From a virus: a stretch of DNA of 52,359 bases. The stretch lies in the IMG/VR virus record IMGVR_UViG_3300007734_000723, positions 1 to 52,359 of that record. The stretch is one strand, 5' to 3'. How positions within the stretch are numbered: the stretch's first letter is position 1; each line of letters begins with the position of its first letter. Both the position numbers and the translations under genes were made by a program. Under the pieces are notes generated by a model that saw nothing but the letters and a program-made list of their open reading frames with translations, searched no databases and was not told the DNA's origin. Shown here one piece after another: positions 8,176 through 49,995 of this stretch.

Positions 8176-8179
8176 CCAA

Positions 8180-9322: not shown

Positions 9323-9330
9323 GAGATATA

Positions 9331-9648: not shown

Positions 9649-9713
9649 GACGCTGGCGAACGTTGGCGACTGGATTCTACTATTCGGGAGTCCCTACTAG
9701 ATAAGGAGAAGAT

Positions 9714-12297: not shown

Positions 12298-12355
12298 TTA
12301 ATACTTACCTTCTGTACAGTCTTTCCCGAACGTCTATCCAAAAAGTAAGTGTTAA
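12298..12355. other. Candidate serine-integrase attachment site (58-bp imperfect palindrome)
   Basis: TTAATACTTAC at 12298-12308 and GTAAGTGTTAA at 12345-12355 are inverted repeats matching at 10 of 11 positions. The inner 17 bases of each half still match at 11 of 17, centred on the dinucleotide CC at 12326-12327. Size, dyad symmetry, central dinucleotide and contact with the integrase 3' end are what is known for large serine recombinase attP sites. If both halves are P-type the site is an uncut attP, which fits a junction between tandem prophages. Confidence 0.5.
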
Positions 12356-17994: not shown

Positions 17995-18571
17995 AACCCA
18001 AAACAAGCCCTCTAGCGCGGCTTACGGCAAAAAGCGGAATGGCGGGGTTGTGACGGAGGGGAGACTGACCACGACCCGCACTGGCGAGACGTTTGAGAAG
18101 AGCGTGCTTCTCTCCTACGAGTCGGCTTTGGCACTACAGCGCATACTGAACGCGAACCCCGACATCGAGAGCGCGGAACTGAAGCGCGACCACCACAGCC
18201 CCAACACCTACTACGTGCGTTACCGCGTGACGCTCTCCGCCGACGCTGGCAGGTTGACGGGCGACCTGAACCTACGACGTAGCTTGCACCGGTCCGGGGA
18301 GTTTCGTTCGGAGCCTCTGCCTGATAACCCCGGCGCGTTTCTGGTGGTTCATGTTTTCCCCGCGCATCTTGGCGGCGGTTGCACGATTTACACCGCGAAC
18401 CGTGAAGGCTCCTGTACCTGCCCTCAGAGCAGGATACGGCGCGAGACCTGCAAGCACGTTCTGCACCTCCGTGCAACCTACCCCTTGACGGCAGATAGGG
18501 GCGATGTGAAGACCCCGCGCAAGCGAACGGAAAGCGAAATCACGGCAGATTTCGACAGTGACTACCCCTAA
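17966..18571 (+). CDS. SWIM zinc-finger protein of the early operon
   Basis: Start chosen at ATG 17966 (MNTMSIAQFETQ). The 201-residue product has a basic N-terminal half and a SWIM finger, SCTCPQSRIRRETCKHVLHL, at about residues 150-170. SWIM proteins bind nucleic acid or act as adaptors. It is followed without a gap by the DUF488 gene (TAATG). It shares only the finger with the protein at 11243-11650. Confidence 0.72.
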   Translation: MNTMSIAQFETQNKPSSAAYGKKRNGGVVTEGRLTTTRTGETFEKSVLLSYESALALQRILNANPDIESAELKRDHHSPNTYYVRYRVTLSADAGRLTGDLNLRRSLHRSGEFRSEPLPDNPGAFLVVHVFPAHLGGGCTIYTANREGSCTCPQSRIRRETCKHVLHLRATYPLTADRGDVKTPRKRTESEITADFDSDYP

Positions 18572-18963
18572 TGAAAATCTACACCTTCGGATACAAGAAA
18601 TACAAGCCTAATGCTCTCCTGCTGAAATTGCAGGAGTTGGGGGCGACTCTGATAGACGTTCGGTTCTGTGCGACAGGGGGAAACCCTGCGTGGGCACAGG
18701 GGGAGCTGATGCGGAAGTGCAGAGAGTACGCGGTTCGGTATCTGTACTACAAAGCGTGGGGCAATAAGCACTACAACCGCGACGCGGATATTTTGATAGC
18801 GGACTTTGACGCGGGACTTGAGAGCCTGAAACAGCTTGAGAGCAGTGGGGTAAAGGCGGCGGTCTTGCTGTGCGCGTGCGAGTGCTATGCGACGTGCCAC
18901 CGTGCGGTACTGGCGGAGCGACTACGATTAGAGGGCTACGAAGTGGAGGAGCTAGGGCTATGA
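18571..18963 (+). CDS. DUF488 family protein
   Basis: A 130-residue protein beginning MKIYTFGYKKYKPNALL, with IDVRFCATGGNPAW and the diagnostic Cys/His cluster LLCACECYATCHRAVLAE (Cys101, Cys103, Cys105, Cys109, His110). DUF488 proteins are short, probably metal-binding and nucleic-acid-linked; the biochemical role is unresolved. The start overlaps the stop of the SWIM gene. Confidence 0.85.
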   Translation: MKIYTFGYKKYKPNALLLKLQELGATLIDVRFCATGGNPAWAQGELMRKCREYAVRYLYYKAWGNKHYNRDADILIADFDAGLESLKQLESSGVKAAVLLCACECYATCHRAVLAERLRLEGYEVEELGL

Positions 18964-19505: not shown

Positions 19506-19834
19506 TGTGCAAACCTTCCTGCGCGGTTTGGGGCTTGCCGAAAGAGGAGGTTTGCCCCGACTGCCTTTTGGATTTTCTGCCAAACGCTACTGACAATTTG
19601 GCAGGTCGGATATTGCTGATGTGTCAGAGACTGTGCCCTCCTTTCCGATTTTTAAGACTACGTTTGTCTGCGCTTATGCGGGATGATGTTACGACTGTAC
19701 CCGGTATCGTGGACTGGGTGCGCGAGATGCGAGAGTTCTACCCGCCCTGCTCTTACGAGGGTGGGGTAGCGCATAGTTTCAGGATAGACCCGCAATTTGT
19801 GGAGATAGGAGGGCGAACCAATGGGGCAAGATAG
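19505..19834 (+). CDS. Cys-rich hypothetical protein (109 aa)
   Basis: ATG 19505 is preferred over the overlapping GTG 19502. The first 25 residues contain CKPSC and CPDC, which fit a zinc site. The rest is a helical, Arg-rich segment (RFLRLRLSALMRDD). It overlaps the DUF5131 start by 14 bases, which suggests translational coupling. Function unknown. Confidence 0.5.
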   Translation: MCKPSCAVWGLPKEEVCPDCLLDFLPNATDNLAGRILLMCQRLCPPFRFLRLRLSALMRDDVTTVPGIVDWVREMREFYPPCSYEGGVAHSFRIDPQFVEIGGRTNGAR

Positions 19835-20744
19835 CAAAATCGAGTGGACAAAACACACGTTCAACCCTTGGCGCGGTTGCACTAAGGTTTCAGAGGGATG
19901 CAAGTTTTGCTACGCTGAAACGCTCTCCAACAGAAATCACGGAACGCTGGGAGTGTGGGGACCCAAAGGGTCTCGTGTTATCGCTTCCGAAACGATGTGG
20001 GCGCAACCCGTCAAGTGGAACCGAGAAGCGGAAGCGGCTGGGGAGCGTCATCGGGTGTTTTGCGCGTCGTTGGCGGATGTGTTTGAGGGCGATGATACGA
20101 TGCCCTCCGAATCATGGAAGAGCGTTGACGATGCGCGTGAGAGGTTGACGTGGCTAATCATAAACACTCCTCATTTAGACTGGTTACTACTCACGAAACG
20201 CCCCCAAAACGTGATGGAAATGCTTCCTGAAGACTGGATGAGCGGGTTGCCGCCCAATGTCTGGATTGGAACCAGTGTCGAGAATCAGGCGATGGCGGAG
20301 GAGCGCATTCCTCATCTGCTACAGATACCCGCGAAGGTGCGTTTCCTCTCCTGTGAGCCTCTCCTGGGGGCGGTGGATTTGAGCGGTTGGGCTACAGATA
20401 CGGGGGTGTGGAAGTGCCCGAACTGCCGATACACGCTCCAAAAATGCTACCTGCGGGCTTCCGATGGCGCGGTAGGGTTGAACACGGAGCAGGTTCGCGA
20501 GGTCTGCCCGAACGATGGCGCAACGCTTCGCCCTCTCTCGCTGATTGATTGGGTCATTGTCGGCGGGGAGTCCGGCGCGAACGCGAGACCGATGCACCCC
20601 GATTGGGCGCGGGGCTTGAGAGACCAGTGCGTTGAGGCAGGGGTAGCCTACTTTTTTAAGCAGTGGGGCGGCACGACCGCGAAAGCGGGCGGGCGACTCT
20701 TGGACGGGCGCGAGTGGAGTGAATACCCGGAGGTGTCGAAATGA
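19821..20744 (+). CDS. DUF5131 (phage Gp37/Gp68) family protein
   Basis: A 307-residue protein. Cys20, Cys27 and Cys30 in RGCTKVSEGCKFCYAE form a CxxxxxxCxxC cluster, as in radical-SAM-like phage proteins of the Gp37/Gp68 group. Other landmarks are WLLLTKRPQNV, NVWIGTSVENQ and WVIVGGESGANARPMHPDW, all typical of this family. An inserted zinc-ribbon-like segment (CPNCRY…CPNDG) lies near residues 197-235. The reaction is unknown; an Fe-S cluster is likely. Confidence 0.9.
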   Translation: MGQDSKIEWTKHTFNPWRGCTKVSEGCKFCYAETLSNRNHGTLGVWGPKGSRVIASETMWAQPVKWNREAEAAGERHRVFCASLADVFEGDDTMPSESWKSVDDARERLTWLIINTPHLDWLLLTKRPQNVMEMLPEDWMSGLPPNVWIGTSVENQAMAEERIPHLLQIPAKVRFLSCEPLLGAVDLSGWATDTGVWKCPNCRYTLQKCYLRASDGAVGLNTEQVREVCPNDGATLRPLSLIDWVIVGGESGANARPMHPDWARGLRDQCVEAGVAYFFKQWGGTTAKAGGRLLDGREWSEYPEVSK

Positions 20745-29089: not shown

Positions 29090-29497
29090 ATGGTAAATCC
29101 TGATACAGAGGCGGAGGTTGTAGGCTCGATTGTCGCAGGGTTGAGTCTTAATGCTATCGCCAAGAAATACAAACTAGCGCGGAATACCGTTATGGCGATT
29201 CGCGCTCGCCACTTCAAAGAGGGGGAGATTCCCGCTCGTCAGTCGGAAGCGAAGCAAGAGCAGGTAGAGCAGGCGATTGAGCGGCAGAAGTCTACGATGG
29301 ACGAAAAGTTGGCGGACGCTGTAGACAGCGGGTTGGACTATCTGAAGCGAATCCCTGTGAGAACATCACGAGATGCTTATATCGACAGTCAAACGGGGCG
29401 GGATAACGCGGCATTGTACCGAGAGATTAAAGACTTCACGCTTCAAATTCTCGAAGCCGCAGGGGGCGCAGAAGAAGAGTTCACCGAACCGGATTAA
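29090..29497 (+). CDS. Terminase small subunit
   Basis: A 135-residue protein with an N-terminal HTH (VAGLSLNAIAKKYKLARNTV) and helical, charged rest, directly before the large terminase. TerS binds the packaging site and recruits TerL. The overlap with the large subunit is unusually long in the annotated frame. Confidence 0.75.
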   Translation: MVNPDTEAEVVGSIVAGLSLNAIAKKYKLARNTVMAIRARHFKEGEIPARQSEAKQEQVEQAIERQKSTMDEKLADAVDSGLDYLKRIPVRTSRDAYIDSQTGRDNAALYREIKDFTLQILEAAGGAEEEFTEPD

Positions 29498-30926
29498 CCT
29501 CTTTGAAAACTTCATATCGAAAGTACGTCCGACCTACCAGATGTATCGCCACTGCGAGGAACTGATTTCGGTTTTGCAGAGAGTCGCGGACGGAGAACTC
29601 AAGCGCGTCATGGTGTTCATGCCACCCCGCCACTCCAAAAGCGAGACGGTAAGCAGATTGTTTCCCGCTTACTACCTGCAACGCTATCCGGAGCGGAGCG
29701 TGGGGCTTACCTCCTACTCGATAGACTTGGCGCGAACTCTAAGCAGAGCGGCGCGTAGCAACTTCATCGAAGCGGGGGGCGAACTCTCGAAGACCGCGAC
29801 AGCAGTGACGCACTGGGAGACCAAGCAGGGCGGCGCGATGTGGAGCGCGGGAGTCGGCGGCGCGATAACAGGCAAGGGCGGTCATTTACTCATTGTTGAC
29901 GACCCTGTGAAAAACGCGGCGGACGCGGACTCGGAGCAGCTGCGCGAGAAGGTCAAGGACTGGTACGACTCCACGTTCTACACCAGATTGGAGCCAGAGG
30001 GCGCGATTGTGATAGTTCAGACGCGCTGGCATGAGGACGATTTGAGCGGGTGGTTGCTCTCGCAGGAGGGCGACGAAGAGGAGGACGCGGAGGGCTGGTA
30101 CATTGTCAACCTGCCCGGACTGGCGGAGGAGCCTGTCGCATTTCCGTCCTCATGCACGGTTCACCCCGACTGGCGGGAGGTTGGCGAGGCGTTGTGCGAG
30201 GAGCGTTATCCGAAAGCCCGACTCGCGAGAGTGGCGCGAAAAATCGGAGAGTACTGGTTCAACGCACTCTTCCAGCAACGACCCCGCGCCCGTGAAGGCA
30301 ACATCTTCAAGCGCATCTGGTTCGAGAGTCGGTATAAGTCGCTCCCGGACTTCAAAGCGGTTTATACGATGTGGGATACCGCGCTTAAAGCGCAGGAGAA
30401 GAACGACGAAACCGCGTGCGCTGTGTGGGGCGAAGGGGTAGACGGCCTTCTCTATCTCTTGAGAGTCGCGCATGGACGATGGGAGACGCCCGACGTTGCG
30501 GATTTTCTCATTGAGCAAGCCTATTGGTTGCGCGAACTGTATGGCGACCTCTACGTTGGGGATTTTGTGGAGGATAAGGTTTCCGGCACGACACTCATGC
30601 AGTATCTTCGCCGCCACGAAGACCCCGATACAGAGCGCGGGTATGACGGGAAGCGGCTTGTGGTGACGGCGGTGCAGGTCGAAGCCGACAAGGTGTCGCG
30701 GGCGCACGGCGTGACCCCGCTCTGCGAATCGGAGCGTGTGCGGTTGCCAGACAGCGGCATCTTCCCCGATACGCGGGGATGGGTCGCCAAGTTTATTGAC
30801 CAGTTGCTGGGCTTCCCCGGCAAGCATGACGACATGGTGGACGTGTTTGTCTACGGCATAAAGCGATTTATGGGGACGCTCGGTAAAAAGAGCGCAAAAC
30901 GGACGAAGGCAAAGGGATACGTTTAG
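29373..30926 (+). CDS. Terminase large subunit
   Basis: The packaging ATPase/nuclease. The Walker-A-like MPPRHSKSET lies at residues 83-92, Walker B LLIVDD at 172-177, and the nuclease acidic residues at YTMWDTA, GDFVEDKVSG and KHDDMVD. The start is uncertain: ATG 29373 gives a 125-base overlap with TerS, and the first 40 residues do not look like the family. Conserved sequence starts near NRINLFENFISK, where no ATG, GTG or TTG exists before 29540. A rare ATT start near 29493 or a +1 frameshift from TerS is possible. Confidence 0.9.
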   Translation: MLISTVKRGGITRHCTERLKTSRFKFSKPQGAQKKSSPNRINLFENFISKVRPTYQMYRHCEELISVLQRVADGELKRVMVFMPPRHSKSETVSRLFPAYYLQRYPERSVGLTSYSIDLARTLSRAARSNFIEAGGELSKTATAVTHWETKQGGAMWSAGVGGAITGKGGHLLIVDDPVKNAADADSEQLREKVKDWYDSTFYTRLEPEGAIVIVQTRWHEDDLSGWLLSQEGDEEEDAEGWYIVNLPGLAEEPVAFPSSCTVHPDWREVGEALCEERYPKARLARVARKIGEYWFNALFQQRPRAREGNIFKRIWFESRYKSLPDFKAVYTMWDTALKAQEKNDETACAVWGEGVDGLLYLLRVAHGRWETPDVADFLIEQAYWLRELYGDLYVGDFVEDKVSGTTLMQYLRRHEDPDTERGYDGKRLVVTAVQVEADKVSRAHGVTPLCESERVRLPDSGIFPDTRGWVAKFIDQLLGFPGKHDDMVDVFVYGIKRFMGTLGKKSAKRTKAKGYV

Positions 30927-32410
30927 TGATATTTAGCGATGCACAGTACGCCGCACAACTCATAAACACCAAATCGTTACCGCCCGGTCTCACGCATATA
31001 CAGACACTGGCGGCGCAAGCCCGCGCCTACGACGCTATGAAGCCGTACCCGCTCTTCTGGTTCAAAAACTGGAAAGAGGAGGACAGGGGGCCACTGCCGC
31101 GCTGTATGCCTATCGCGAAATCTATCGTGAAGCGCGGGTCTCGTTGGCTGTTCGGGAAGCCTGTAGAGTTGAGGTGCCCCGGCAACGAGGCTCTGGAAGA
31201 AGCGATTGAAAAGGTCTGGAAGCAGAACCGTCTCGATAGCCGACTTGTCGCTATAGCGCGTAGAGGGGCGATAGAGGGGGGCGTTGTTCTCAAGTTCGCG
31301 TATGACGAGTCCGCGTTTCCGAATGTCACCGTGCAGTCGTTATCGCTGGTGACGCAGGTGAGGCTCTTCTACCACCCGCACAACCGCGAAAAGTTGTTGA
31401 TGGCGCGGATACAGTACCCTTACTACGATGGCGTAGAGGCTTGCGCGTACTGGTATCGGGAGGAGTGGACGGCGGAGCAGGAGACTCACTACTACCCCGT
31501 CAAGGACGAATCTCTGCAACGCGCTAACCCTGACACTTACGAGAGTTGGGAGATAGACACAGACGCGACGATTCCGAACCCGTTCAAGTTGATTCCGCTT
31601 CATGTCATCAAAAACATTGAGACCGACGATGTGTGGGGCGCAGGCGACCTGTGGGAACCGGACGACGAACAGGACGGCGGACTCTACCGTGTTTTGGACA
31701 GGGTGCATCTGACATATCACTTGATGGACAAATCCAACCAGTTCGATAGTCAGGTCAACCCGATTTTCATGGACATTGATGTTGACCAAGACGACATCAA
31801 TAAGCCGCAACAGCCCGGAGAGCCGCTTAACCTTGAGTCCGCGAACCCTGACGGACACCCGGGTCGCGTTGCGTTCCCGCCTTCTGGCAATGCGCTTCGC
31901 CCTGCGATGATGGAGTACGCTCGCGACCTGCGAAAGCAGATATTGGCGGCGGCTTCGAGCGTAGAGGTAGACCAAGCCGAAATCTCGAACATGGGCAACC
32001 TTACGAACGCGGTTCTGGCGCAACTCTATCTGCCTCTGATAGAGTTGACGGAAGACAAGCGCAAAACCTACGGGCAGGATGGAATCGCGCCGTTCCTCGC
32101 TAAAATGGCGATAGGGCTACAACGCGCCGGCGTGCCGATGGGCGTGAACGAGTCGGACGAGTCGACCTATACGGTCGAGATTGGCTGGAGTCCCTACTTC
32201 CCCTTCACGGAAGACGAAAAGACCGCCATTGTGACGCGCATACAGCAGGAGGAGGGGGCGGGCTATCTCACCCGCGACCGCGCCATTGAAGAGGTCTCGG
32301 AGATGGAGGGGCGCACGGAGATTGAGGAGATGAAGGCGGAACTCGCAACCCAAGCCGACTTGGAACCGCCCGTAGGAGGAGACCCGAACGATGAAAACGC
32401 AGGGACGTAA
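30926..32410 (+). CDS. Portal protein (SPP1 Gp6 type)
   Basis: A 494-residue protein with GTG start overlapping the TerL stop (TAGTG). IAKSIVKRGSRWLFGKPVEL, RGAIEGGVVLKFAYDE and LLMARIQYPYY fit the SPP1-type portal family; the acidic C-terminus (EIEEMKAELATQADLE) also fits. The dodecameric ring is the DNA gate of the head. Confidence 0.88.
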   Translation: MIFSDAQYAAQLINTKSLPPGLTHIQTLAAQARAYDAMKPYPLFWFKNWKEEDRGPLPRCMPIAKSIVKRGSRWLFGKPVELRCPGNEALEEAIEKVWKQNRLDSRLVAIARRGAIEGGVVLKFAYDESAFPNVTVQSLSLVTQVRLFYHPHNREKLLMARIQYPYYDGVEACAYWYREEWTAEQETHYYPVKDESLQRANPDTYESWEIDTDATIPNPFKLIPLHVIKNIETDDVWGAGDLWEPDDEQDGGLYRVLDRVHLTYHLMDKSNQFDSQVNPIFMDIDVDQDDINKPQQPGEPLNLESANPDGHPGRVAFPPSGNALRPAMMEYARDLRKQILAAASSVEVDQAEISNMGNLTNAVLAQLYLPLIELTEDKRKTYGQDGIAPFLAKMAIGLQRAGVPMGVNESDESTYTVEIGWSPYFPFTEDEKTAIVTRIQQEEGAGYLTRDRAIEEVSEMEGRTEIEEMKAELATQADLEPPVGGDPNDENAGT

Positions 32411-32558
32411 AGAGGTCTTTGAAGCCGCGCTTATCGCCGCCCTGTGCGCGTTCGTGACAGGCGTTGTGAATTGGGGCGTGGAAGAAGCGCGTCGCAAGGC
32501 GGAAGAAGCCCGCGTAAAAGCGGAACAGGCGAAGAAGAAAGGCAAGAAATCGAAATGA
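32391..32558 (+). CDS. Small membrane protein with Lys-rich tail (55 aa)
   Basis: ATG 32391 lies inside the end of the portal gene behind GGAGGA. MKTQGRKEVFEAALIAALCA is followed by FVTGVVNWGVE, a membrane helix, and a strongly basic helical tail. It ends over the next ATG. Unknown function. Confidence 0.5.
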   Translation: MKTQGRKEVFEAALIAALCAFVTGVVNWGVEEARRKAEEARVKAEQAKKKGKKSK

Positions 32559-32767
32559 AGCATACCGCCGTCCGCTCTTCCAATATCGCCTCTATCGGCT
32601 ACGACATTGCGACACAGGAGCTGGAGGTCACGTTCAAAAACGGCTCCACTTATGTTTATGAGGGCGTTCCCTCTGAACTTCACGCGATGCTACTGATAGC
32701 CCCAAGCGTGGGAAAGCACCTTGACCAGCACGTCAAGGGCAAATTCAACTACCGAAAGAAAGGTTGA
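32555..32767 (+). CDS. KTSC domain protein
   Basis: A 70-residue protein starting at ATG 32555. It has SSNIASIGYDIATQELEVTF, then YVYEGVPSELHAMLL and SVGKHLDQHVKGKFNYRKK, the full KTSC domain. KTSC domains are widespread in phages with unknown role. Confidence 0.9.
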   Translation: MKHTAVRSSNIASIGYDIATQELEVTFKNGSTYVYEGVPSELHAMLLIAPSVGKHLDQHVKGKFNYRKKG

Positions 32768-32769
32768 TT

Positions 32770-33141
32770 ATGCGAGAGATAACGGATCACAAACTGAGCG
32801 ACCTGAACAACGCGGTGGATATAACTGCCGACGAGCGTGATTCCGCGTGTGGAAACGCTTCGCACGAATACGCGATACACCTCCACAAGTCGGAGACCGA
32901 GGGGCATATAACCCTTTTGAATTTCCAGCATGGCGCGGTCAAAGAGGTCGGGCTGAACGGAATCAGCGACGAAGTCCTAATAGCGATTGTGATAGACCGC
33001 TTGCAGGGCTTTCAGGCTGGCGATTTCCGCTCTCGCGAGAACGCTCTTGCGATTACCCATCTGGAGGAGGCTATGCACTGGCTGAATCATCGCACGCTTG
33101 ACCGTATGCGTCGCGGCGTGGAAGGCGTAAGCAAAGCCTAG
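32770..33141 (+). CDS. Acb2/Tad1-like domain protein (candidate anti-CBASS/anti-Thoeris sponge)
   Basis: Start chosen at ATG 32770 with AAGAAAGG in front. The 123-residue protein shows GNASHEYAIH near residue 28, VKEVGLNGISDEVLIAIVID at about 57-76, LQGFQAGDFRSRENALAI at 78-95 and a helical hairpin EEAMHWLNHRTLDRMRRGVE at 99-118. This order matches a large phage family now linked to the Acb2/Tad1 hairpin fold, whose studied members bind cyclic oligonucleotide or cADPR-type signals. Ligand binding is inferred; many members are untested. Confidence 0.7.
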   Translation: MREITDHKLSDLNNAVDITADERDSACGNASHEYAIHLHKSETEGHITLLNFQHGAVKEVGLNGISDEVLIAIVIDRLQGFQAGDFRSRENALAITHLEEAMHWLNHRTLDRMRRGVEGVSKA

Positions 33142-33217: not shown

Positions 33218-33763
33218 ATGTCTGACCAAGACCCGAAAACCCCGCCCGTCCCGCCTGTGGTTCCACCCGCAGACCCGCCGTCCGCCGACCCTAAGCCCGG
33301 CGCGAACGATGAAAACAAGTTCCGCAGGCTACACGAGAAAGCGGAGGGCGACAACGCGGCGCTGAAAACCCGACTCGCAGAACTGGAAGCCGCCGAGAAA
33401 GCCCGTAAAGAGGGCGAGATGACGGAACTTCAGAAGGCGCAGGCGGAAGCCGCCGAGCTGAAAGCGAAGACCGCCGCACTGGAAGCCGAAAACCTGCGCC
33501 GCAAGATAGCCGCCGAAAAGGGACTCGCGCCTGACATGCTGGACTTTTTGAGCGGAGACGAAGCGCAGATGACAGCGCAAGCGGAGAGACTCGCGGGGCT
33601 TGCGAATCGCCCTCCTGCGAAAGCGGGAACCACCACACTACCGGGAGGAGGGCAGACTCCTACGGTTGACGAGCAGATAGCCGCCGCGCAAAAGGCTAAC
33701 AACACGCACGAGGCGATACGACTCAAGCGCGAACGCGCAGGGTTTGGAAACAACGCGCAATAA
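33218..33763 (+). CDS. Head scaffolding protein
   Basis: A 181-residue protein: a Pro-rich N-terminus (PPVPPVVPPADPPSADPKPG), a long Glu/Ala/Lys coiled coil at about 40-100, and a C-terminal QIAAAQKANNTHEAIRLKRE segment. This is the usual build of DUF4355-like scaffolds found directly before the major capsid gene. Confidence 0.82.
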   Translation: MSDQDPKTPPVPPVVPPADPPSADPKPGANDENKFRRLHEKAEGDNAALKTRLAELEAAEKARKEGEMTELQKAQAEAAELKAKTAALEAENLRRKIAAEKGLAPDMLDFLSGDEAQMTAQAERLAGLANRPPAKAGTTTLPGGGQTPTVDEQIAAAQKANNTHEAIRLKRERAGFGNNAQ

Positions 33764-33806
33764 CCGCCCGCCCATGTAGGGGATGGGGCAAAAAGGAAAA
33801 ACAACG

Positions 33807-34790
33807 ATGGCTACAGGACAGGTAACGACATATACTGTCGTCGATTATTTGGGCGAACTGTTTCAAACGTCCAAGCGCCCCAACACGCTCTTGAAACTAC
33901 TGGGCAGTATCCATGGTTCGGTGCTACGCACTAACTCGAAAGAGTTCCCAGTCGGAACCTTCTACGACCTCCGCTCCCCGGCGCAACCCGCGATTCTGGA
34001 AGGCGCGGCGGCTCCTGCGGCGCAGTATCGCGCTCTGACGCAGGCGACCAACGTGGTGCAACTCTTTCACGAGAAGGTGAGCCTATCTTACCTCGCCCAG
34101 AGCGATCAGACGGTTACGGGTATTGTTCCGATTCCGCAGGCGAAGCTCAATGGTCCTGTGCAGAACCCGCGTTCGGAGGCGTTTCAGGTTATGCGGGCGT
34201 TGGAGACTGTCGCGCAGGACGCGAACTACAGTTTCCTGAACGGAACCTACGCAAATCCTGCTAACCCCGCTTCGACGGCTCTCAAGACTCGCGGGATCCT
34301 TACCGCAATTACCACGAACCTCGTAGACCATAGTGGAAGCACCATCAATACCGCCGCGCTCTATCGCGCCGAGGTGCAGTCCCTCATGGCGCTGCTTGTT
34401 GCTTCGACGGGCTACATTCCGGACGATACGTGGACAATCATAGCGGACACGACGCAGTTCGGGAACATTCAGGCGGCTTACGAAGGCTCTACCACGCCGC
34501 CGTATGACCGCGAGGTTGCGGGTTTTAAACTACGTCAAATCTATACCCGCTACGGCATTCTGAACCTCGCGCTCGACCCCGATATGCCCGCAAACTACTT
34601 CGCGATTCTCAATCTCGGAGTGGCAGGGATTGCAGGGCTGGAAGTTCCCAATAAGGGGATTCTGTTTGAGGAGCCGCTCTACAAGCAGGGTTCGTCGGAC
34701 GAAACCCAGATTTACGGGCAACTCGGAATTGACCACGGTCCCGAATGGATGCACGCGATGGTGAAACTGCCGTCTGGCATCTCCCTTTAG
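33807..34790 (+). CDS. Major capsid protein (SU10 / DUF5309 type)
   Basis: Start chosen at ATG 33807 with AAAGGAAA before it. The 327-residue protein lacks an HK97 delta domain and resembles SU10-type capsid proteins: VVDYLGELFQTSKRPNTLLK, EFPVGTFYDLRSPAQPAILE, RALETVAQDANYSFLNGTYA. Position after scaffold supports the call. Confidence 0.85.
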   Translation: MATGQVTTYTVVDYLGELFQTSKRPNTLLKLLGSIHGSVLRTNSKEFPVGTFYDLRSPAQPAILEGAAAPAAQYRALTQATNVVQLFHEKVSLSYLAQSDQTVTGIVPIPQAKLNGPVQNPRSEAFQVMRALETVAQDANYSFLNGTYANPANPASTALKTRGILTAITTNLVDHSGSTINTAALYRAEVQSLMALLVASTGYIPDDTWTIIADTTQFGNIQAAYEGSTTPPYDREVAGFKLRQIYTRYGILNLALDPDMPANYFAILNLGVAGIAGLEVPNKGILFEEPLYKQGSSDETQIYGQLGIDHGPEWMHAMVKLPSGISL

Positions 34791-38477: not shown

Positions 38478-40355
38478 ATGCAAAAAGAAGTACGGTTGAT
38501 AGCCCCTCTTCACAGCAATTCAGGTTATGGCAAGGCGGGAAGAGGGCTTTTGGCGGCGCTTTTAACACAGGGCTACACGGTGGAGGCGATAGAGAAAGAG
38601 GCGGACACGGAGACCTGTATCCGCACAGACGGAAGCGTGGTCACGACTCGAACGCCGATGCGGTCGCGCCCCATGCGCCACTCCCAGCAGGTAGAACTCG
38701 ATGCCGCACTGGCTACGCAGGTCTCTCACGACGCGCCGACGATTCTGCTCGGAACGCCTGACGATTTGACACTCTTTCCTGAGTACCCCAACAAGCGAAT
38801 CGGCTTCACGATGTGGGAGGTGAACGAAATACCTTCGCGGTGGGAGCGTCGCCTTAGTTGCGTTGACCGCGTAGTTGTCCCGTCGCAGTGGAACGCCGCG
38901 CAGATACCCGCGCACAACCCTGCCGTGATTCCCCTCTGCGTTGACGAAAGATGCTGGTCTACCGAGGGCGCGGTCTACCCTATAGGCGAGCAGTGGAAGC
39001 CCGATTTCCTCTTTTTGAGCGTGTTTTACGTGAGCGAACGCAAGAACTGGCAGGAGATGCTGGGCGCGTTTGCGGAGGAGTTTCTGGGCGAAAGCGTAGG
39101 GCTTTTGATACGAGCGTCGGGAGAGAATGAGTATCTGAGAGAGTGCGTGAGGCATTACCAGCGAATCGGCGTGAAGGTAGAGGTCTTAACGGAAGAACTC
39201 TCGGAAGAGGAACTCGCGGGGCTGTATCGGCTTGCGGACTGCTTCGTATTGCCCTCTACGGAGGGGTTCGGGATGCCTTACGTGGAGGCGGCGCTGTGCG
39301 GTACTCCGAGTATTGGGCTATTTGGGCAGGCGGGTGGTGAAACCGTTGAGGCATTAGGGGGTGTGCAGGTAGCTTCTCGCCCCGCGCAAGCGTTCAGTCG
39401 CATACCTCATCTCTACTCGCCGCAGATGACGCACCTGAAGCCCCATTATGAGGCGTTACGAAGGGCGATGCGCGACGCGGCGGAGAATGGCATAAAAGGC
39501 GCGTTGATTTCGGAGAGAGTAAAGCGCTTCTCTTGTGAACGCATAGGGGCGCAACTCGCGGCGGTAATTGAAGAGGTACGCGCCGCTGAAACTGTGATAC
39601 CTGAACCGAAAGAGATTCCGCTGGGCGTGGCGATAATGCTCACGCGCAACCACCTCGATAAGACGAAAATCGCGATAGAGAGCCTGAAGCGCACTGCGCC
39701 GGAGACGGCGATACTGGTAGTGGATGACGGGAGCGAAGACGAAACCGTAGAGTGGCTACGCAGTGAGGGCGTGACGGTGATTGAAAGCCCGACTCGCAAC
39801 ATCGCCACGAACTGGAATACTGGAGTCGAATGGCTACTCTCGCAGGGGTTCGCTTACCTCAACGAGATAGGTTGGGATGGTCCCATTGTGTTCTCCGACA
39901 ACGATATTGAGTATCAGGAGGGCTGGTTTGAGGGGCTTTGGCGCGTGATGGAGAGCGATTCGACTATCGGGATAGTTGCGCCGGCGAAGTGGAAGCCTAG
40001 TTCGTGGTTTGAGGGGCAGACGGTTTTGCAGAACTGCGGGAACTGGCTCTCAGAGTGTTTTGAGGGCAGGGACGGCAAACTGTTACGAGCCTACGAACCC
40101 GACTACGTGGAGACCGCTTGCATGATGGTTCGCTCTGAGGTTTGGCGACGGATTCGGATGGATGAGCGGTTCCCTATCTTTTATAACGACGTGGACTACT
40201 GCTTTGAGGCGCGAAAACTCGGTTACAGGGTGGTGGCGACCCCTCTCGCCAACGTGAAACACACGCCGAATACTACGAGCGCAGCGCGGGGCGGTGAGAG
40301 TGCCACACTGCGAAGCGTCTTCTTACAGAAACGAAAAGGAGAGTTACGAGGATGA
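38478..40355 (+). CDS. Two-domain glycosyltransferase (GT4-like plus GT2-like)
   Basis: A 625-residue protein. Residues 1-375 look like a GT-B enzyme: SGYGKAGRG at 15-23 and the retaining-GT signature EGFGMPYVE at 262-270. Residues 380-625 look like a GT-A/GT2 domain: VVDDGSEDET at 414-423 and SDND at 473-476 as metal-binding motif. It sits between the major tail and chaperone genes. Known phage cases glycosylate virion proteins, which is the likely role; host surface modification is the alternative. Confidence 0.87.
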   Translation: MQKEVRLIAPLHSNSGYGKAGRGLLAALLTQGYTVEAIEKEADTETCIRTDGSVVTTRTPMRSRPMRHSQQVELDAALATQVSHDAPTILLGTPDDLTLFPEYPNKRIGFTMWEVNEIPSRWERRLSCVDRVVVPSQWNAAQIPAHNPAVIPLCVDERCWSTEGAVYPIGEQWKPDFLFLSVFYVSERKNWQEMLGAFAEEFLGESVGLLIRASGENEYLRECVRHYQRIGVKVEVLTEELSEEELAGLYRLADCFVLPSTEGFGMPYVEAALCGTPSIGLFGQAGGETVEALGGVQVASRPAQAFSRIPHLYSPQMTHLKPHYEALRRAMRDAAENGIKGALISERVKRFSCERIGAQLAAVIEEVRAAETVIPEPKEIPLGVAIMLTRNHLDKTKIAIESLKRTAPETAILVVDDGSEDETVEWLRSEGVTVIESPTRNIATNWNTGVEWLLSQGFAYLNEIGWDGPIVFSDNDIEYQEGWFEGLWRVMESDSTIGIVAPAKWKPSSWFEGQTVLQNCGNWLSECFEGRDGKLLRAYEPDYVETACMMVRSEVWRRIRMDERFPIFYNDVDYCFEARKLGYRVVATPLANVKHTPNTTSAARGGESATLRSVFLQKRKGELRG

Positions 40356-41025: not shown

Positions 41026-44000
41026 ACCCCTCACATGGCGACTTAGGCTCTATACAGGTAGGTATTGATATTGGGATTGCGAACCTGCAACGGCAGATGG
41101 TGCAGGTCGTGGGCGAATTCAACAGGTTTGGTCAGAAGATAGACGACTCTGTTGCGAAGACGCAAGCCTCCATCTTGCGCTCGTACACGACCTCTATAGA
41201 GCGTCAGAACAAACTGATTGAGCAGCAGTCTACGAAGCGTATTCGGGAGGAGCAGAGGGTACTTGCCGCGATAGAGCGCGAGCGAGCAAAGCACTCTCGC
41301 GCCGCGCTACGTGTGGCAGGTATGGCAGGAGATGCGGGGTTTGCGGTCGGGGTTCCCCTTGCGGCAGGGCTTGCGGCGGCGGCTAAGACGGCGGCGGAGT
41401 TTGATCAGTCTATGCGGAACGTCGACTCTATCGCTCATCTCACCGAACAGCAGCTCGCTTCTCTCCGTAACGAAACCTTGAAACTCGCGCAGGATAAGAG
41501 CATCCGTCAGACACCCAAAGACCTTGCGGAGGGGCTGTATCAGGTGTATTCGGCGGGTAAATCTGGCAAAGAGGGGCTTGAGATACTAGAGTGGGGCGCT
41601 AAAGGGGCCTCGGCGGGTATGACAGATACCGCGACCTCTACGAAGGTTTTGCTTGCGGTTCTCAATTCAGGCATTAGCGGGGTGAACAACGCCCGCGAAG
41701 CGATGGATGTGCTTTTTCAAGAGGTGAATCTGGGCGTTAACACCTTCCACGAACTCGCGAACTCTATAGGCAACGTGCTACCTACTGCGAAAGTGGTAGG
41801 CGTTTCGATTCAGGAGGTGGCGGCGGCGATGGCGGCGATGACGCGAAACGGAATCAACGCCGACGAGTCTGTTACCTCGCTGAACCAGATGCTGACGCAC
41901 ATCTGGAAGCCGGGCAAGGAAGCGGAAAAACTGATGACCTCGCTTGGTATCAGTTTTGGGGCGGCGGCACTTGAGGGTAAGGGGTTGGGCGGATGGCTCA
42001 AAGAGGTAATGGAGAAAACGCACGGGAACCGTGACCAGTTGGCGCACCTGATACCTGAAATACGCGGCGCAAAGGGCGAGTTCTCTCTGCTCTCGGATGG
42101 ATTGAAGGGTTACAACGAACTTTTAGGCAGCATGAAAAAGGCGAGTGAGGGCGCAGGTCAAACGACGGAAGCACTCACTCGACAGAATAAAGGTTCAGTC
42201 TCGCAGTTTGAACTCCTAAAAAAAGAGGTAGACCTTACCAAAATCGCGATAGGCGACGGGCTTCTCCCGACAGTGAATCAAGCGATGAAAGGGTTTCGTG
42301 AATGGCTCGAGGAGTGGAATAAGCAACCGAAAGCGGCAAGAGACGCGCAGACAGGAATAGCAACGCTTGCGGCAGAGGTGGGGTTAAGCATTGGTGTTAT
42401 ATCTAGCCTAGTAGGCTGGCTTGCGAAACTCAAGACGGGACTAGCTACGCTGGGAGTATCAGGCGCGGCAGGATTAGCGGCGACGGGAGTCGGAACGGCT
42501 GTCGCAGGAATCGGGCTTATGGTGAGCGAGCGAGCGAGTATGATAGACGCGATAGAGTCAGGCAATAAGGCGGCGTGGGAAGGTGCGCCCAACGCAAAAA
42601 GGAACCGTCCAGCACTTGAAGCCGAGCGTAAACGCATCGAGCAGGGGTTGAAAGAGTATGCCGGAATACCCGCCAAACTAGCAGAGCTGCAGAAGCGCAA
42701 ATCGGAGGTCGGGGCAGCTCTGTCGGCTCTTGACATTGAAGGCGCGGCGGCAGACGATGCACGAAAAGGACACCTCACGGATACGAAACCTAAACCCCCT
42801 TGGGGCGCAGGTGGCTACGAAAGAAACGCAGGGAAAGCGGGGGCAAAGGCGGCGAAAGACGCGGCGCGGGAACGTGCGAGAGAGATAAAAGACGCTATCA
42901 AGGATACGGAAGACGAAACGCGACTGACTCGTGACGATATAGCGGCACGGAAGGAGCTACTGTTGGCGGGGCGTGAGTTGGCAGTATTTAAGGCACAACA
43001 GGGCTTCGACGCAACGATGGCGAACGCTAAGACCCCTGCACGGCGTGGGGCGGCAGCTCTCCTGTATCAAGTCCAGGTTTGGAAAGCGCAAGAGTCAGAA
43101 GCACTTGAGGCTATGCGTAAGAGTGTCGCGATTTACAAAGAGCAGACAAAAGTCCCTGAAGGCGTGAAAGACGACTCAAAGGAAAAGGGTTGGGCGGCAC
43201 TCTCTGGCGGCATGGCGAACGCCTACGCGGTTCAGCAGTACGGGGCATCTGTAGCGGAAGCGATTGCGAAAGAGGTAGAGGAGCAGAAACGCGCCCAAGA
43301 TGAGATTATGGAGTATCGGCGGCGCATGGGTGAGATGACGAACGCGCAGTATATCAAGTTTTTGGAGCAGAGAGTGCTGGCAGAGCGGACGTTTGGGTTT
43401 GGCGGCAAAGAGACCAGCGAGCAGAACCCTGCTTTCAGGGATAAGAACCTCGAACTGCGCCAACACTACACGGACGCGATGGAGAGCATCTTTGGAAGCA
43501 AGGGCAGAAAAGGCGGCAAAGAGGGGGCAAAAGAGATTGCAGAGGGGATTTCGCAGGGTGATAAGTATATGAAACGCGCTATGGAAGACCTGAGCGGCGG
43601 GGCGTTGGGTTCGTTGCAGAAGGCACTTCACAAAGGCATGAAGGGCGGATTTGGGGATATTCTTGCACACACGCTCACCGACCTGCTCTCTAACGTGCTT
43701 GAGAACGCTATTACCTCCGCTTTTAAGAAGAAAAAGAAGAAGGGCGGTGGGGCAGGAGACGTATTCGGCGGCGGCGGGTTGTTGGGTGACTTCCTATCGC
43801 CAATCTCTAGCCTGTTCGGCGGCGGGTTCGATAATGCCTCTAACGACAGGATGGCGCAAGGGTGGGGCTTCGACTTCGCGAAGCATTTTAGCAGGGGCAC
43901 TGCTCAGTTTGACAACCAGATGAGGGCGGTAGTACCCGCAGGGGGTGGCGTCGGTGTCGGCTCGCGAAGTGTGAGCATCAACCTGCACGGCGACAACCAT

Positions 44001-44093
44001 TTCCATACTGCGATAGATGTTCAGGAGTTCGGGCGCTCGTTGGCGTGGCAGGTGCAGAGCGAACTCAACCGAACCGTAGGAGGGGGTTACTAA
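41022..44093 (+). CDS. Tail tape measure protein, second copy (1023 aa)
   Basis: The N-terminal 130 residues (LGSIQVGIDIGIANLQRQMV then coiled coil) are a shorter allele than in the first copy; only the opening LGSIQVGI is shared. From AKTAAEFDQSMRNVDSIAHL on the two proteins are almost the same. The difference of 76 residues would change tail length by about 11 nm (rule-of-thumb inference). Confidence 0.93.
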   Translation: MNPSHGDLGSIQVGIDIGIANLQRQMVQVVGEFNRFGQKIDDSVAKTQASILRSYTTSIERQNKLIEQQSTKRIREEQRVLAAIERERAKHSRAALRVAGMAGDAGFAVGVPLAAGLAAAAKTAAEFDQSMRNVDSIAHLTEQQLASLRNETLKLAQDKSIRQTPKDLAEGLYQVYSAGKSGKEGLEILEWGAKGASAGMTDTATSTKVLLAVLNSGISGVNNAREAMDVLFQEVNLGVNTFHELANSIGNVLPTAKVVGVSIQEVAAAMAAMTRNGINADESVTSLNQMLTHIWKPGKEAEKLMTSLGISFGAAALEGKGLGGWLKEVMEKTHGNRDQLAHLIPEIRGAKGEFSLLSDGLKGYNELLGSMKKASEGAGQTTEALTRQNKGSVSQFELLKKEVDLTKIAIGDGLLPTVNQAMKGFREWLEEWNKQPKAARDAQTGIATLAAEVGLSIGVISSLVGWLAKLKTGLATLGVSGAAGLAATGVGTAVAGIGLMVSERASMIDAIESGNKAAWEGAPNAKRNRPALEAERKRIEQGLKEYAGIPAKLAELQKRKSEVGAALSALDIEGAAADDARKGHLTDTKPKPPWGAGGYERNAGKAGAKAAKDAARERAREIKDAIKDTEDETRLTRDDIAARKELLLAGRELAVFKAQQGFDATMANAKTPARRGAAALLYQVQVWKAQESEALEAMRKSVAIYKEQTKVPEGVKDDSKEKGWAALSGGMANAYAVQQYGASVAEAIAKEVEEQKRAQDEIMEYRRRMGEMTNAQYIKFLEQRVLAERTFGFGGKETSEQNPAFRDKNLELRQHYTDAMESIFGSKGRKGGKEGAKEIAEGISQGDKYMKRAMEDLSGGALGSLQKALHKGMKGGFGDILAHTLTDLLSNVLENAITSAFKKKKKKGGGAGDVFGGGGLLGDFLSPISSLFGGGFDNASNDRMAQGWGFDFAKHFSRGTAQFDNQMRAVVPAGGGVGVGSRSVSINLHGDNHFHTAIDVQEFGRSLAWQVQSELNRTVGGGY

Positions 44094-44851
44094 TGGCTTA
44101 CGCACTCAAGTTCGGCTCGTACACATTCCCAACCACCTTCGCGCCCGTGAGCGACCCTGTTGACGTGAGTGTGCCGCTCTCGAAGATACCCCGCTCTGAT
44201 GGTGACGTAGCCTCTACAGGTTATCGTAAGGGCAAGGTAGTGCAGATAGACGGCGGGTTGACGAACGGGGTAGGGAGCTACTCAGAGACAGGGGTAAGGA
44301 CGCTTATAGACGCGTTTCGGGCTGGCATTGCGGGGAAGCAGAACCTCTACTTTTTCGACGATAGGTACTATCGAAATGCTCAAATGACCCATGCCGAGTT
44401 TGCCAACGAGGTAGGGACATTCCTCAAGATACAGAAAGTGCGGCTTACGTTCGTTGCGGGCGACTCGTATCAGTACGCGGTCACGCCTACCGTCACGGCG
44501 CGAAGCATTAGCGCGAGTGGGCAGACGCTCTCTGTGACTGCAGGAGGGACGGCAGACGCGATCCCTGTGATTAGCTTGACGGTGGGGGGAAGCGGGGCGA
44601 AGACGCTGGCGGCGACGATAACCAACTCCACGACAGGGAAGGCGTTCACGCTGGCGGGGGCTTGTACAGGCGGGGACGTGATTATCGTGGACTGCCTGAA
44701 CAAAACTGTGACGATAAGCGGGGTGGACAAAACGGCACTGTTTGACGGTCTCTTCTGGAGCCTCGCGAACGGAGCCAACACCGTGACGGTTGCTTACACC
44801 ACGGCGACGATAACCAATCTGAGTGTTTCGGCACAGGATAGGTGGTACTGA
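44093..44851 (+). CDS. Distal tail protein (Dit-like), copy 2
   Basis: Same 252-residue protein as at 3811-4569, with the same TAATG overlap with the tape measure. I found no residue difference. The complete preservation between two otherwise diverged operons points to recent exchange rather than strong selection alone, because synonymous sites match as well. Confidence 0.75.
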   Translation: MAYALKFGSYTFPTTFAPVSDPVDVSVPLSKIPRSDGDVASTGYRKGKVVQIDGGLTNGVGSYSETGVRTLIDAFRAGIAGKQNLYFFDDRYYRNAQMTHAEFANEVGTFLKIQKVRLTFVAGDSYQYAVTPTVTARSISASGQTLSVTAGGTADAIPVISLTVGGSGAKTLAATITNSTTGKAFTLAGACTGGDVIIVDCLNKTVTISGVDKTALFDGLFWSLANGANTVTVAYTTATITNLSVSAQDRWY

Positions 44852-47169
44852 TGGATTACGACGTAAGGATGTACACCAGCGCGGGGGTTCGGAAGGCGTT
44901 TAATCCTGACTGGATAACCTCTGTTGACTTCGAGTTGGCAGAGCAGGGAGGCTTTCAGAACGGCAGTATCACAGTGCAGTGCGCTTGGGATGACCTCTCG
45001 CTCGATGGCACGGAGTACGTTGACATACGGTGCTTTGACGCTACGACAGTCACGTACAGGGGCTACGTTATGCGCCCAGAGCAGACGCTGGCTGACCCTG
45101 AGACGTGGACGCTCTCGCTGTTTGGGATGATGGAGAGGGCGAACGGCTACCTTGTGCGGAAGTGCTACTGCTATGCGGATTATACCGACGTTGGCACGAT
45201 TTTTCAAGCGATAGTGACCGACTGGGTTGCGCCCAACATTGCGGGGCTGGTGGTGGACGTGACGGGCATCTCTGCACTCAATATTAAGTTGCTTGAGTTT
45301 TGTGCGACAGGCAAGACGGCTTCGCAGGCGTTTAATCAGCTGGTAGAGTCCGCACCGCTTACTATGATTTGGGGCTTTGACGTGACTAGCGGTGGTGTGA
45401 ACCAGATATATCTACGCCCTCGCTCTGCTACGGTGCAGGATACCTATATTGTGGGTAAGGACGTGACGGCACTGACCTACCCTCGCGACGTGACTCAGGT
45501 GGTGAACAAGGGGTACTTTACAGGGGGGACGGCAGACCTGCCCAACCTCGCGCCAAACGCCTCTTTTGAGAACTGCGTGAGCGTGACCAGTGCGGACGCG
45601 AATCTCCTCTTGAACGGTAGCTTCGAGACGCAAACCCCTTCGAGCAGTCGGCAGAACGCGGCGTACTGGAACCGGGACAACTCCGCGGTGCGGCGGCAGT
45701 TTCCAGACGATAACCCGGGGGCGAACCTCTCTCGAACAGGCAACTGCTATATTGAGATGACGAACGCGACCGCGATATTCTACCAGACGGTACAGGTGGG
45801 GTACGCACAGCCTATAAACGTCTCGATATGGGCGCGACAGAACACCAACGGCGACACGGAGAATTTTCGGTTCAGGGTGCAAGAACTGGACTCGGTGGGC
45901 ACAGTGCTGGCGACTCAGGTCTCTGGGAACCTCACTCCTGCGACTTCGACGTATGAGCAGTTCAGCTACACCTTCACGTTGACACAGCCTACCTGCACAC
46001 AGGCAGTATTCGTGTTTGAGATGATGAGTGCAGGCGGCACAGCGCACGGGATTATCTACGATGACGCGGTAGTGACGCTCTCCACGCCGCAGGCGGCTGA
46101 CTGGACGATCGGCACGAACAGCGACAAGACATTCGCGACTCTCGACTGGGCATCCACGGGGTGGGCGAAAGACGGCTTGCAGAGTGTAGAGGTGATACCT
46201 AGTGCGGCAGGTGCGGGGTATGTAGAGCTGGTGACGCGAGCGGAATCGAATGTGAGTGTTGCGCCGGGCAAGACGCACTACTTCTCGTTGTGGGCGTATG
46301 GGGTCGCGGGCACGATTGTACTAGGTTGGCGTGAGTATGCGGACGGGGTGCTGACCTCAACGCAGGGCATGAGCGTGGCAGAGGTTGTTGTAGGGGTGAC
46401 AGGCAGCCGCCACACCTTCAGCTCCACGACGGGAACCACTACCAACACGATACAGCCGTTCATTCGGATTTATGACAGCAGTAGCAACCCTGTGTATGTG
46501 GATGCGGTGATGATAACGGTAGGGGCGGCTCCCCCTCTGGGCGACTTCTACAAGGGCAGTAACTACGAGGCAGTACGTTCGGTGACGGACTACACAGTAG
46601 GGCAGATAGGGACGGCACAGTCGGCATCTATAGCGAGCTACGGGCTGAGGGAGAAGGCAGAGTCGGTAGACCTCATTACCAACAGCACATTACTGGATAC
46701 GTTCGTGGTTCCCTATCTGGCAGCGTTCGCGGTTCCTGCGGTGCAGGGGAAACTAGAGATAAAGGGCGCGGTGAAGAATGTGGGGCTGACCGGAACCCTG
46801 CGCGTGGTGAATTTGCCTTCCGCCCCGCCTGCACTGTTTCCGTCGCGTGTTCGCTATCGGATAGGGGATTCGTTCGATATTTCAGTAGACCTGAATAACC
46901 AACGTCCCGACATGGCGCAGCTCTTGCGGAAGGTCGCGAATCAGGCAGTAAAGAACGCGGTGGCTTCGGGGCAGGTCAGCGCAGGGGGCACAGGGGGCGG
47001 TGGCGGTGGAGGTTCGTACCCTTCCAGTGCGGGGGTGACGAGTTTTCAGTCGGACTCGAATACGGCGTTGACGGGGGCGGTAGTGCTTGTGAGCGGCATT
47101 GGTACGGCATTAGCAGAGTCTGGTCAGAACATCACAGTCAATAATCTATGGAGTAGAAAGTTTTTATAA
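44851..47169 (+). CDS. Tail-tip / baseplate protein with carbohydrate-binding modules, copy 2
   Basis: Same 772-residue protein as at 4569-6887: hub-type N-terminus, two jelly-roll-like carbohydrate-binding segments, Gly-rich linker and short C-terminal trimer-like tail. No difference was seen, so both phages should recognise the same receptor. Confidence 0.72.
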   Translation: MDYDVRMYTSAGVRKAFNPDWITSVDFELAEQGGFQNGSITVQCAWDDLSLDGTEYVDIRCFDATTVTYRGYVMRPEQTLADPETWTLSLFGMMERANGYLVRKCYCYADYTDVGTIFQAIVTDWVAPNIAGLVVDVTGISALNIKLLEFCATGKTASQAFNQLVESAPLTMIWGFDVTSGGVNQIYLRPRSATVQDTYIVGKDVTALTYPRDVTQVVNKGYFTGGTADLPNLAPNASFENCVSVTSADANLLLNGSFETQTPSSSRQNAAYWNRDNSAVRRQFPDDNPGANLSRTGNCYIEMTNATAIFYQTVQVGYAQPINVSIWARQNTNGDTENFRFRVQELDSVGTVLATQVSGNLTPATSTYEQFSYTFTLTQPTCTQAVFVFEMMSAGGTAHGIIYDDAVVTLSTPQAADWTIGTNSDKTFATLDWASTGWAKDGLQSVEVIPSAAGAGYVELVTRAESNVSVAPGKTHYFSLWAYGVAGTIVLGWREYADGVLTSTQGMSVAEVVVGVTGSRHTFSSTTGTTTNTIQPFIRIYDSSSNPVYVDAVMITVGAAPPLGDFYKGSNYEAVRSVTDYTVGQIGTAQSASIASYGLREKAESVDLITNSTLLDTFVVPYLAAFAVPAVQGKLEIKGAVKNVGLTGTLRVVNLPSAPPALFPSRVRYRIGDSFDISVDLNNQRPDMAQLLRKVANQAVKNAVASGQVSAGGTGGGGGGGSYPSSAGVTSFQSDSNTALTGAVVLVSGIGTALAESGQNITVNNLWSRKFL

Positions 47170-47511
47170 ATGGCTACAGAGACACCTGGAGAACTAGGAA
47201 CATCCTACCCTGCCGCGTCAACATGGACGGAGGTATACACAGTCCCCGACGTGGCGGGTAACTACGCCGTCACATCGCTTTTGACTGTCTGCAATGAGGG
47301 GTGTAGCACTGATTATTTCAGCATAGCGACGGTGACGCATAGTGCTGGGAATCCAACGACGCAACAGTATAAAGCGTATCTTATACCTGTAGACCCGAAC
47401 TGCACATATCTGTTAAAAATAGCGTTGACGCTAGGGCAGAACAAGGCAATAAGCGTCTACTCGCAAAATGGGACACTCGCGTTTTCAGCACAGGGGGTGC
47501 AGAATGTCTGA
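47170..47511 (+). CDS. Small virion-associated beta-rich protein, copy 2
   Basis: Identical in reading to the 113-residue product at 6888-7229, again starting one base after the tail-tip stop. Unknown function; tail appendage by position. Confidence 0.6.
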   Translation: MATETPGELGTSYPAASTWTEVYTVPDVAGNYAVTSLLTVCNEGCSTDYFSIATVTHSAGNPTTQQYKAYLIPVDPNCTYLLKIALTLGQNKAISVYSQNGTLAFSAQGVQNV

Positions 47512-48457
47512 TTTTCTGATTGGTAACTCTCTCAACGCTCTTGCTCCTCCTGCTACGGAGGCATCGGACTGGTACAATCGAAACACTATAGCCCGCGTCA
47601 TGTCCTCTATGAAACTAGGCTTCCCATATGGGCGCAGCGTCTATACCGTCAACAGTACTAACAACGCTTTCAACTATCAGGGTAGTACCACTGCAACGGC
47701 ACAAAATACGGATTTCGCTATGAGATGGCAACTAGACTGCGGGTATCCCGGTACGCCTCAGTGGTTTGGCTTCCCATTCGAGGGCGATTCTATAGGGCTG
47801 GTATACGATATTGATACAGGCTCGAAAACCAGTACCACTGCCGCGTATTATCAACCATTCGGGGCGCGTATAGACGGACGATCTTATCGTATTACTCCCT
47901 CATTTGCCTCGATTGAAGGTAACGGAAACATTACGCCGGCATCATATATCTATCGCTCTGGTAATAACCGTACACAAGCACGGTGGGTAATTCACGGGCT
48001 AGGGAGCGGTATGCACTATGCGCGGTTCACTGTGAGCGGCGACCCTGCGTGGGTAGGCGATGAGGCGACAGGTGCTGGCTCTAATCAACGTGTGGGCATT
48101 TACGGGGTACTCCTTCCCTCCGACTCTTGGGATAGTATGGCAAAAGAGAGTTCGACTTTCACTGTACGGTATAGTAGTGTCTCAACGTCAATGACAACAC
48201 TCTCCTCTTTCTCCAATGGAACCACACCGCTGCGTATATCGCGACTGCGGGCATACAACAAACACGCGACAACTGCGACATCTATAGTGGCACAACTGGA
48301 CGGTAGCAACACTGAGATGGGGGTTGTGGCACTCGCGGCAGGTGCGTCTATAGATTTACTTGCCGCAGGTGCGCCGCGTTCGTTCACGTCAATTAGGGCG
48401 CAGGCGGGCGCGGCTTCCTCTATCGACCTATATGCAGATTACATAGCGGGGATATAG
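47504..48457 (+). CDS. Putative tail fibre / receptor-binding protein, copy 2
   Basis: Same 317-residue protein as at 7222-8175, with the ATG inside the previous gene. Ser/Thr/Gly-rich beta-type composition; receptor-binding role by position. Confidence 0.6.
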   Translation: MSDFLIGNSLNALAPPATEASDWYNRNTIARVMSSMKLGFPYGRSVYTVNSTNNAFNYQGSTTATAQNTDFAMRWQLDCGYPGTPQWFGFPFEGDSIGLVYDIDTGSKTSTTAAYYQPFGARIDGRSYRITPSFASIEGNGNITPASYIYRSGNNRTQARWVIHGLGSGMHYARFTVSGDPAWVGDEATGAGSNQRVGIYGVLLPSDSWDSMAKESSTFTVRYSSVSTSMTTLSSFSNGTTPLRISRLRAYNKHATTATSIVAQLDGSNTEMGVVALAAGASIDLLAAGAPRSFTSIRAQAGAASSIDLYADYIAGI

Positions 48458-48461
48458 CCAA

Positions 48462-49604: not shown

Positions 49605-49612
49605 GAGATATA

Positions 49613-49930
49613 ATGGCACTTTCTACGGTAGAGGCAACTTTCAAAACATCTGATTTGTTGAGATTGATACAGGCGCGAATAGAGCGGGCTGAAAATACTA
49701 TGACGAAAATTGAGGCTAAGATGGCTCCTTTGCGCGGCACTACGGCGATGCACGAAGAATCGTTCACTCTGCTCAGGGATGCTTACGATAAGGCGCGAGG
49801 GGTGGCAGAACATAAATTTTGGATACCAATACTAGCGAACTGCAAAGATGAAACAGTAACGGTACTACATTCTGAATTGCAGTGGTTACGGATTGACTCT
49901 CTGGACGTACAGACCACGTTGAAGAAGTAA
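49613..49930 (+). CDS. Small coiled-coil protein, copy 2
   Basis: Matches the 105-residue product at 9331-9648 apart from Thr instead of Ser at residue 31. Last complete gene shared by both tail operons. Confidence 0.65.
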   Translation: MALSTVEATFKTSDLLRLIQARIERAENTMTKIEAKMAPLRGTTAMHEESFTLLRDAYDKARGVAEHKFWIPILANCKDETVTVLHSELQWLRIDSLDVQTTLKK

Positions 49931-49995
49931 GACGCTGGCGAACGTTGGCGACTGGATTCTACTATTCGGGAGTCCCTACTAGATAAGGAGAAGAT

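Follow-up and report, generated by a model that had tools for sequence, protein, structure and literature searches.

A Tad1 homologue encoded between the portal and scaffold genes of a phage capsid operon

The Tad1 (Thoeris anti-defense 1) protomer was described to consist of an N-terminal antiparallel beta-sheet and two long C-terminal helices, and Tad1 was reported to bind gcADPR and cyclic oligonucleotides (PMC12043709). Structures are available for CbTad1 and CmTad1 (PDB 7uav/7uaw/8smd/8kbb-8kbh), which resemble the protein described here in length and two-part architecture, share the core FQAG...SREN...EEA.W.N.R..DR with it and are its top sequence and fold matches. Acb2 (PaMx33-type proteins, T4 Vs.4 and 'Acb2 homolog 43', 9ptq) has the C-terminal helical hairpin of family PF24729 in common with our protein, but is short (<100 aa) and all helical, whereas the protein described here adds the Tad1 beta region. 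A further described relative, phiKZ gp184 (PDB 8y6v chain I), is a virion Tad1 of 230 aa, which possesses the same C-terminal Tad1-like domain but carries an N-terminal part that our protein is lacking. As regards gene context, the characterised tad1 of SBSphiJ7 has no annotated head genes on either side, and in the related Bacillus phage P59 tad1 adjoins a recombinase gene and lies near the DNA polymerase gene, while the gene reported here resides in a capsid operon. A literature search, with most subscription papers being outside its reach, found neither sponges in late or head operons nor an exchangeable slot for sponges in a capsid operon.

The tad1 gene and its operon

The window (i.e., the whole analysed stretch of 52,359 nucleotides from an IMG/VR virus record) contains the capsid operon with the following features:

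29373..30926, plus strand: terminase large subunit (TerL; profile matches)
30926..32410, plus strand: portal protein, SPP1 Gp6-like (profile matches)
32555..32767, plus strand: KTSC-domain protein, 70 aa, directly upstream of tad1 and found in the same place in relative L022 (profile and comparison)
32759..32763, plus strand: AAAGG, resembling a ribosome-binding site, 6 nt upstream of the ATG of tad1 and partly within the end of the KTSC gene (sequence)
32770..33141, plus strand: Tad1-family sponge, 123 aa (homology, predicted fold)
32989..33087, plus strand: stretch matched by the PF24729 hairpin profile, residues 74-106 (Pfam profile)
33218..33763, plus strand: capsid scaffolding protein, DUF4355 / Gp46-like (profile matches)
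33783..34790, plus strand: major capsid protein (MCP), SU10_MCP, likelier start ATG 33807 (profile matches)

An ORF check placed the ATG of tad1 at 32770 and the end of its stop codon at 33141, and the 123-residue product begins with MREITDHKLSDLNNAVDI. All motifs quoted for this ORF by the first-pass annotation are present in its translation, namely GNASHEY (residues 28-34), VGLNGISDEVL (60-70), FQAGDFRSRENALAI (81-95) and EEAMHWLNHRTLDR (99-112). The position between the portal and scaffold genes claimed there was likewise borne out, and the flanking genes were now identified as those of an SPP1-type portal, a DUF4355/Gp46-type scaffold and an SU10-type MCP; the KTSC gene and a 55-aa ORF, both located between portal and tad1, had not been mentioned. 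The start of tad1 follows the stop codon of the KTSC gene by 2 nt, a gap of 76 bases separates tad1 from the scaffold gene, and a promoter scan revealed nothing above shuffle expectation. Based on the gene spacing, tad1 would hence be co-transcribed with the capsid operon. The composition of tad1 is not distinctive (GC3 0.65 as compared to 0.65-0.72 for its neighbours).

Further features of the window were recorded. A tail module of about 8.7 kb is present twice (900-9700 and 41180-49980, offset 40,282 bp), the copies being 98-100% identical over most of their length, with an identity that fades at the left and ends sharply at the right. The copies differ in their flanking sequence at either end, which gives the impression of two closely related phages having been assembled into a chimeric or permuted sequence; the head operon lies outside the repeat. 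Positions 38478-40355, which precede the tape-measure gene within the tail region, encode a 625-aa fusion of a GT4-type and a GT2-type glycosyltransferase. The early region encodes a DUF5131 protein (19821-20744, 2.9e-82) with a DUF488 protein (18571-18963) nearby. A large serine recombinase with Resolvase and Recombinase domains (12352-14001, minus strand) suggests that the phage is probably temperate.

Family identity and predicted fold

The ORF encodes a full-length Tad1 homologue. With phmmer, the nearest solved structures were identified to be Tad1 chains, spanning E-values from 1.6e-22 to 8e-21 (8kbb E=1.6e-22, over residues 18-122; CbTad1, 7uav, E=6.4e-21), and phiKZ gp184 was matched as well (8y6v chain I, E=1.7e-10). 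A profile built from 19 sequences and searched against the PDB yielded the same ranking (8kbb 4.5e-40, 7uav 4.4e-31, gp184 3.5e-18). The Pfam family PF24729 (Acb2_Tad1_hairpin) scores 31.6 bits and hence passes its gathering cut-off of 27, phrog_2428 matches at 5e-33, and tblastn at E<=1 identified homologues in 131 phage records. PADLOC and NCBIfam, both of which apparently do not contain this family, yielded no match.

The AlphaFold2 model, whose monomer confidence is modest (mean pLDDT 73.4), contains strands at residues 2-4, 16-20, 33-39 and 45-51 and helices at residues 67-83 and 89-115, so that both the beta-sheet and the two helices of the Tad1 protomer are predicted. A comparison of the predicted structure with Acb2 and Tad1 was one of the checks proposed by the first-pass annotation: the helical hairpin is present, and the 20 Foldseek matches with E<=0.001 are, without exception, Tad1 chains (best E about 1e-7). 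With VIA-align, eight Tad1 entries rank first (Z 5.5-6.0, <=57% identity over the helices). Superposition of the whole chain on Tad1 is poor (rmsd about 17 A), that of the helical hairpin alone gives 0.9-3.1 A, and considering the former together with the modest pLDDT, the position of the beta domain relative to the helices is not fixed by the model. The combination of an N-terminal beta region with a two-helix hairpin argues for the Tad1 type and not for the Acb2 type, and an Acb2 identity was ruled out by this architecture (123 aa, predicted N-terminal strands). The earlier, broader assignment as Acb2/Tad1-like therefore stands and is sharpened to Tad1 by phmmer, fold and architecture, the protein being a new, ordinary member of an already known sponge family.

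Alignment of 19 homologues identified F52, Q53, G55, N63, G64, R77, Q82, R108 and T109 as invariant and F81 and N91 as nearly invariant; a further locus, L038, came from scans by the KTSC protein or the Acb2-type protein of relative L022, which added few loci, and served as an alignment row only. CbTad1 has the segments 81-FQAG and 89-RENA unchanged. Residues F81, N91 and R108, all conserved in the homologues, are identical to their CbTad1 equivalents F82, N92 and R109, which we take to be residues of the gcADPR pocket. CbTad1 has R57, and our protein has V at position 57.

The slot in relatives and in unrelated phages

Relatives of the capsid module were found in the IMG/VR records L022 (portal 69%, MCP 76%), L026 (portal 67%, MCP 78%), L023 (portal 58%, MCP 61%) and L024 (portal 48%), the last being a more remote one. 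At the same slot, L022 and L026 as the two closest relatives encode an Acb2-type sponge instead of Tad1: in L022 a 72-aa PF24729 protein (2e-19) is encoded between the KTSC and the scaffold genes, and in L026 a 115-aa PF24729 protein between a MuF-like gene and the scaffold gene, both hairpin proteins being without a beta domain and hence of Acb2 architecture. The best PDB match of the L022 protein is 'Acb2 homolog 43' with a marginal E=0.001, and a fold search with its model, a mere hairpin of helices and too generic to be informative, matched nothing at E<=0.001; its family assignment thus rests on PF24729 and the marginal PDB match. In L023 and L024, MuF-type genes occupy the slot and a PF24729 gene was found nowhere in either record; the MuF call for L024 and L026 is based on resemblance to the L023 protein and not on a profile. 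The slot is empty in L032, a contig from the MAG of an Armatimonadetes member with a portal of 50% identity, as its portal and scaffold genes overlap. These differing occupants identify the slot as variable, with its three closest members holding two kinds of sponge.

The placement in the late head operon, as claimed by the first-pass annotation, is real at this locus and recurs in unrelated phages of IMG/VR. Tad1 is encoded just after TerL in L009 and L061, between TerL and the connector in L011, between TerL and the portal in L006 and L071, just after the portal in L014 and between portal and MCP in L124. In the whole records of 80 loci TerL was sought using phrog_2, phrog_38 and Terminase_6N, which allowed placing both genes in 57. 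Within these, tad1 lies <=2 kb from TerL in 19 and <=5 kb in 24, all 24 on the strand of TerL. The distance exceeds 5 kb in the other 33 of the 57, and most sampled tad1 genes are located outside head modules; this is what would be expected if tad1 were a cargo (moron) gene that came to rest at a random permissive spot, since small accessory genes land anywhere. Under this explanation, the sponge function would be the one proposed below and the position would be without meaning. After removal of four near-duplicates and of records <25 kb, 45 records were left, and in these tad1 is found within 2 kb of TerL in 12, where 4.0 would be expected (simulated P about 5e-4); in five, where 1.0 would be expected (P about 0.003), it lies on the same strand as TerL and downstream of it. 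The null, uniform placement, is a crude one, and the records used are fragments. In most of the near-TerL cases tad1 is located upstream of the terminase gene, which is not necessarily a late position, hence only the downstream group bears on head operons. The nine proteins that are encoded in head modules do not cluster in a tree of 57 Tad1 proteins but need nine changes, at least four of which are forced by well-supported branches, and the placement therefore arose repeatedly. The enrichment close to TerL and the Acb2-type protein in the same slot of relatives both speak against random placement, which is considered rather unlikely.

A second explanation, which takes up the virion-linked version raised by the first-pass annotation, assumes that the protein becomes part of the head at assembly and, upon injection, acts from the first minutes on, as phiKZ gp184 does. 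The C-terminal part of gp184 matches our protein, gp184 is a virion protein whose injection was validated (PMC10449902), and phiKZ was reviewed to inject Tad1, thereby blocking CBASS and Thoeris (PMC13282480). Furthermore, orf71 of Lactococcus phage 1706 (L017:7929-8282), a homologue of Tad1, is annotated as 'structural protein' despite residing in a helicase/regulator gene cluster, and the Tad1 that L124 encodes in its portal-to-MCP interval possesses an N-terminal domain of its own. In gp184, which is matched at chain residues 113-226, about 110 residues precede the Tad1 core, and likewise in L124, but our protein starts at the core and is without such an N-terminal extension, so that packaging would be possible but is unsupported; the location of most sampled tad1 genes outside head modules weighs against it as well. 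Taken together, delivery with the virion appears improbable for the protein described here. The 243-aa protein of L124 (L124:5653-6384, N-terminal phrog_2293 domain and C-terminal Tad1, from an unrelated phage) is a candidate virion-delivered sponge, and a better one than our protein.

Small genes between portal and scaffold genes often encode minor head proteins, and the position of tad1 might accordingly point to a capsid assembly or decoration factor with a structural role, which kept the Tad1 fold and lost ligand binding, but as the conserved Tad1 motif residues are retained, as the slot, other than expected for an assembly factor, holds Acb2-type, MuF-type or no genes in relatives, and as close homologues in other phages sit in replication modules, this is very improbable indeed.

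Proposed role and host

The likeliest role of the protein is that of a soluble sponge made alongside the capsid, and the reading of a Tad1-type sponge that is co-made with the capsid from the late operon and holds Thoeris and CBASS signals is given a probability of about 0.8. By analogy to characterised Tad1, an oligomer of the protein would bind and hold glycocyclic ADP-ribose, i.e., the Thoeris signal, as well as cyclic di- and trinucleotides, i.e., CBASS signals, and the signals being sequestered, the host effectors would stay inactive. Translation of tad1 is probably coupled to the KTSC gene and would proceed from the late capsid operon ahead of scaffold and MCP. The major head protein was reported to trigger Thoeris (PMC11312562), which would lend indirect support to a link between the head-operon placement and expression at the peak of effector signalling, as suggested by the first-pass annotation. 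Considering this and the signal binding of Tad1, a Tad1 encoded in the capsid operon would rise with its own trigger, since its synthesis would accompany that of the capsid protein sensed by some Thoeris systems. In extension, it is tentatively suggested, at less than even odds, that the locus represents an exchangeable counter-defence slot for Tad1- and Acb2-type sponges, which, being translated along with capsid proteins that trigger Thoeris or CBASS, would be tied in dose to their trigger, and that this arrangement arose several times in unrelated phages.

The host of the phage is perhaps a member of the Armatimonadota, as judged from the one 50% identical portal in MAG contig L032. Among 121 sampled genomes of this candidate host phylum, ThsB_TIR was found above cut-off in 15, one of them being the MAG to which L032 belongs, and a CD-NTase (SMODS) in six, hence candidate targets of the sponge exist there.

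With the protein described here, the Tad1 family is extended to a phage group tentatively linked to Armatimonadota. Sponges within capsid operons suggest an antidote that is produced together with its own trigger, and their placement provides a testable rule, namely that small ORFs of uncharacterised function located between the terminase, portal and capsid genes are a place to look for further counter-defence genes.
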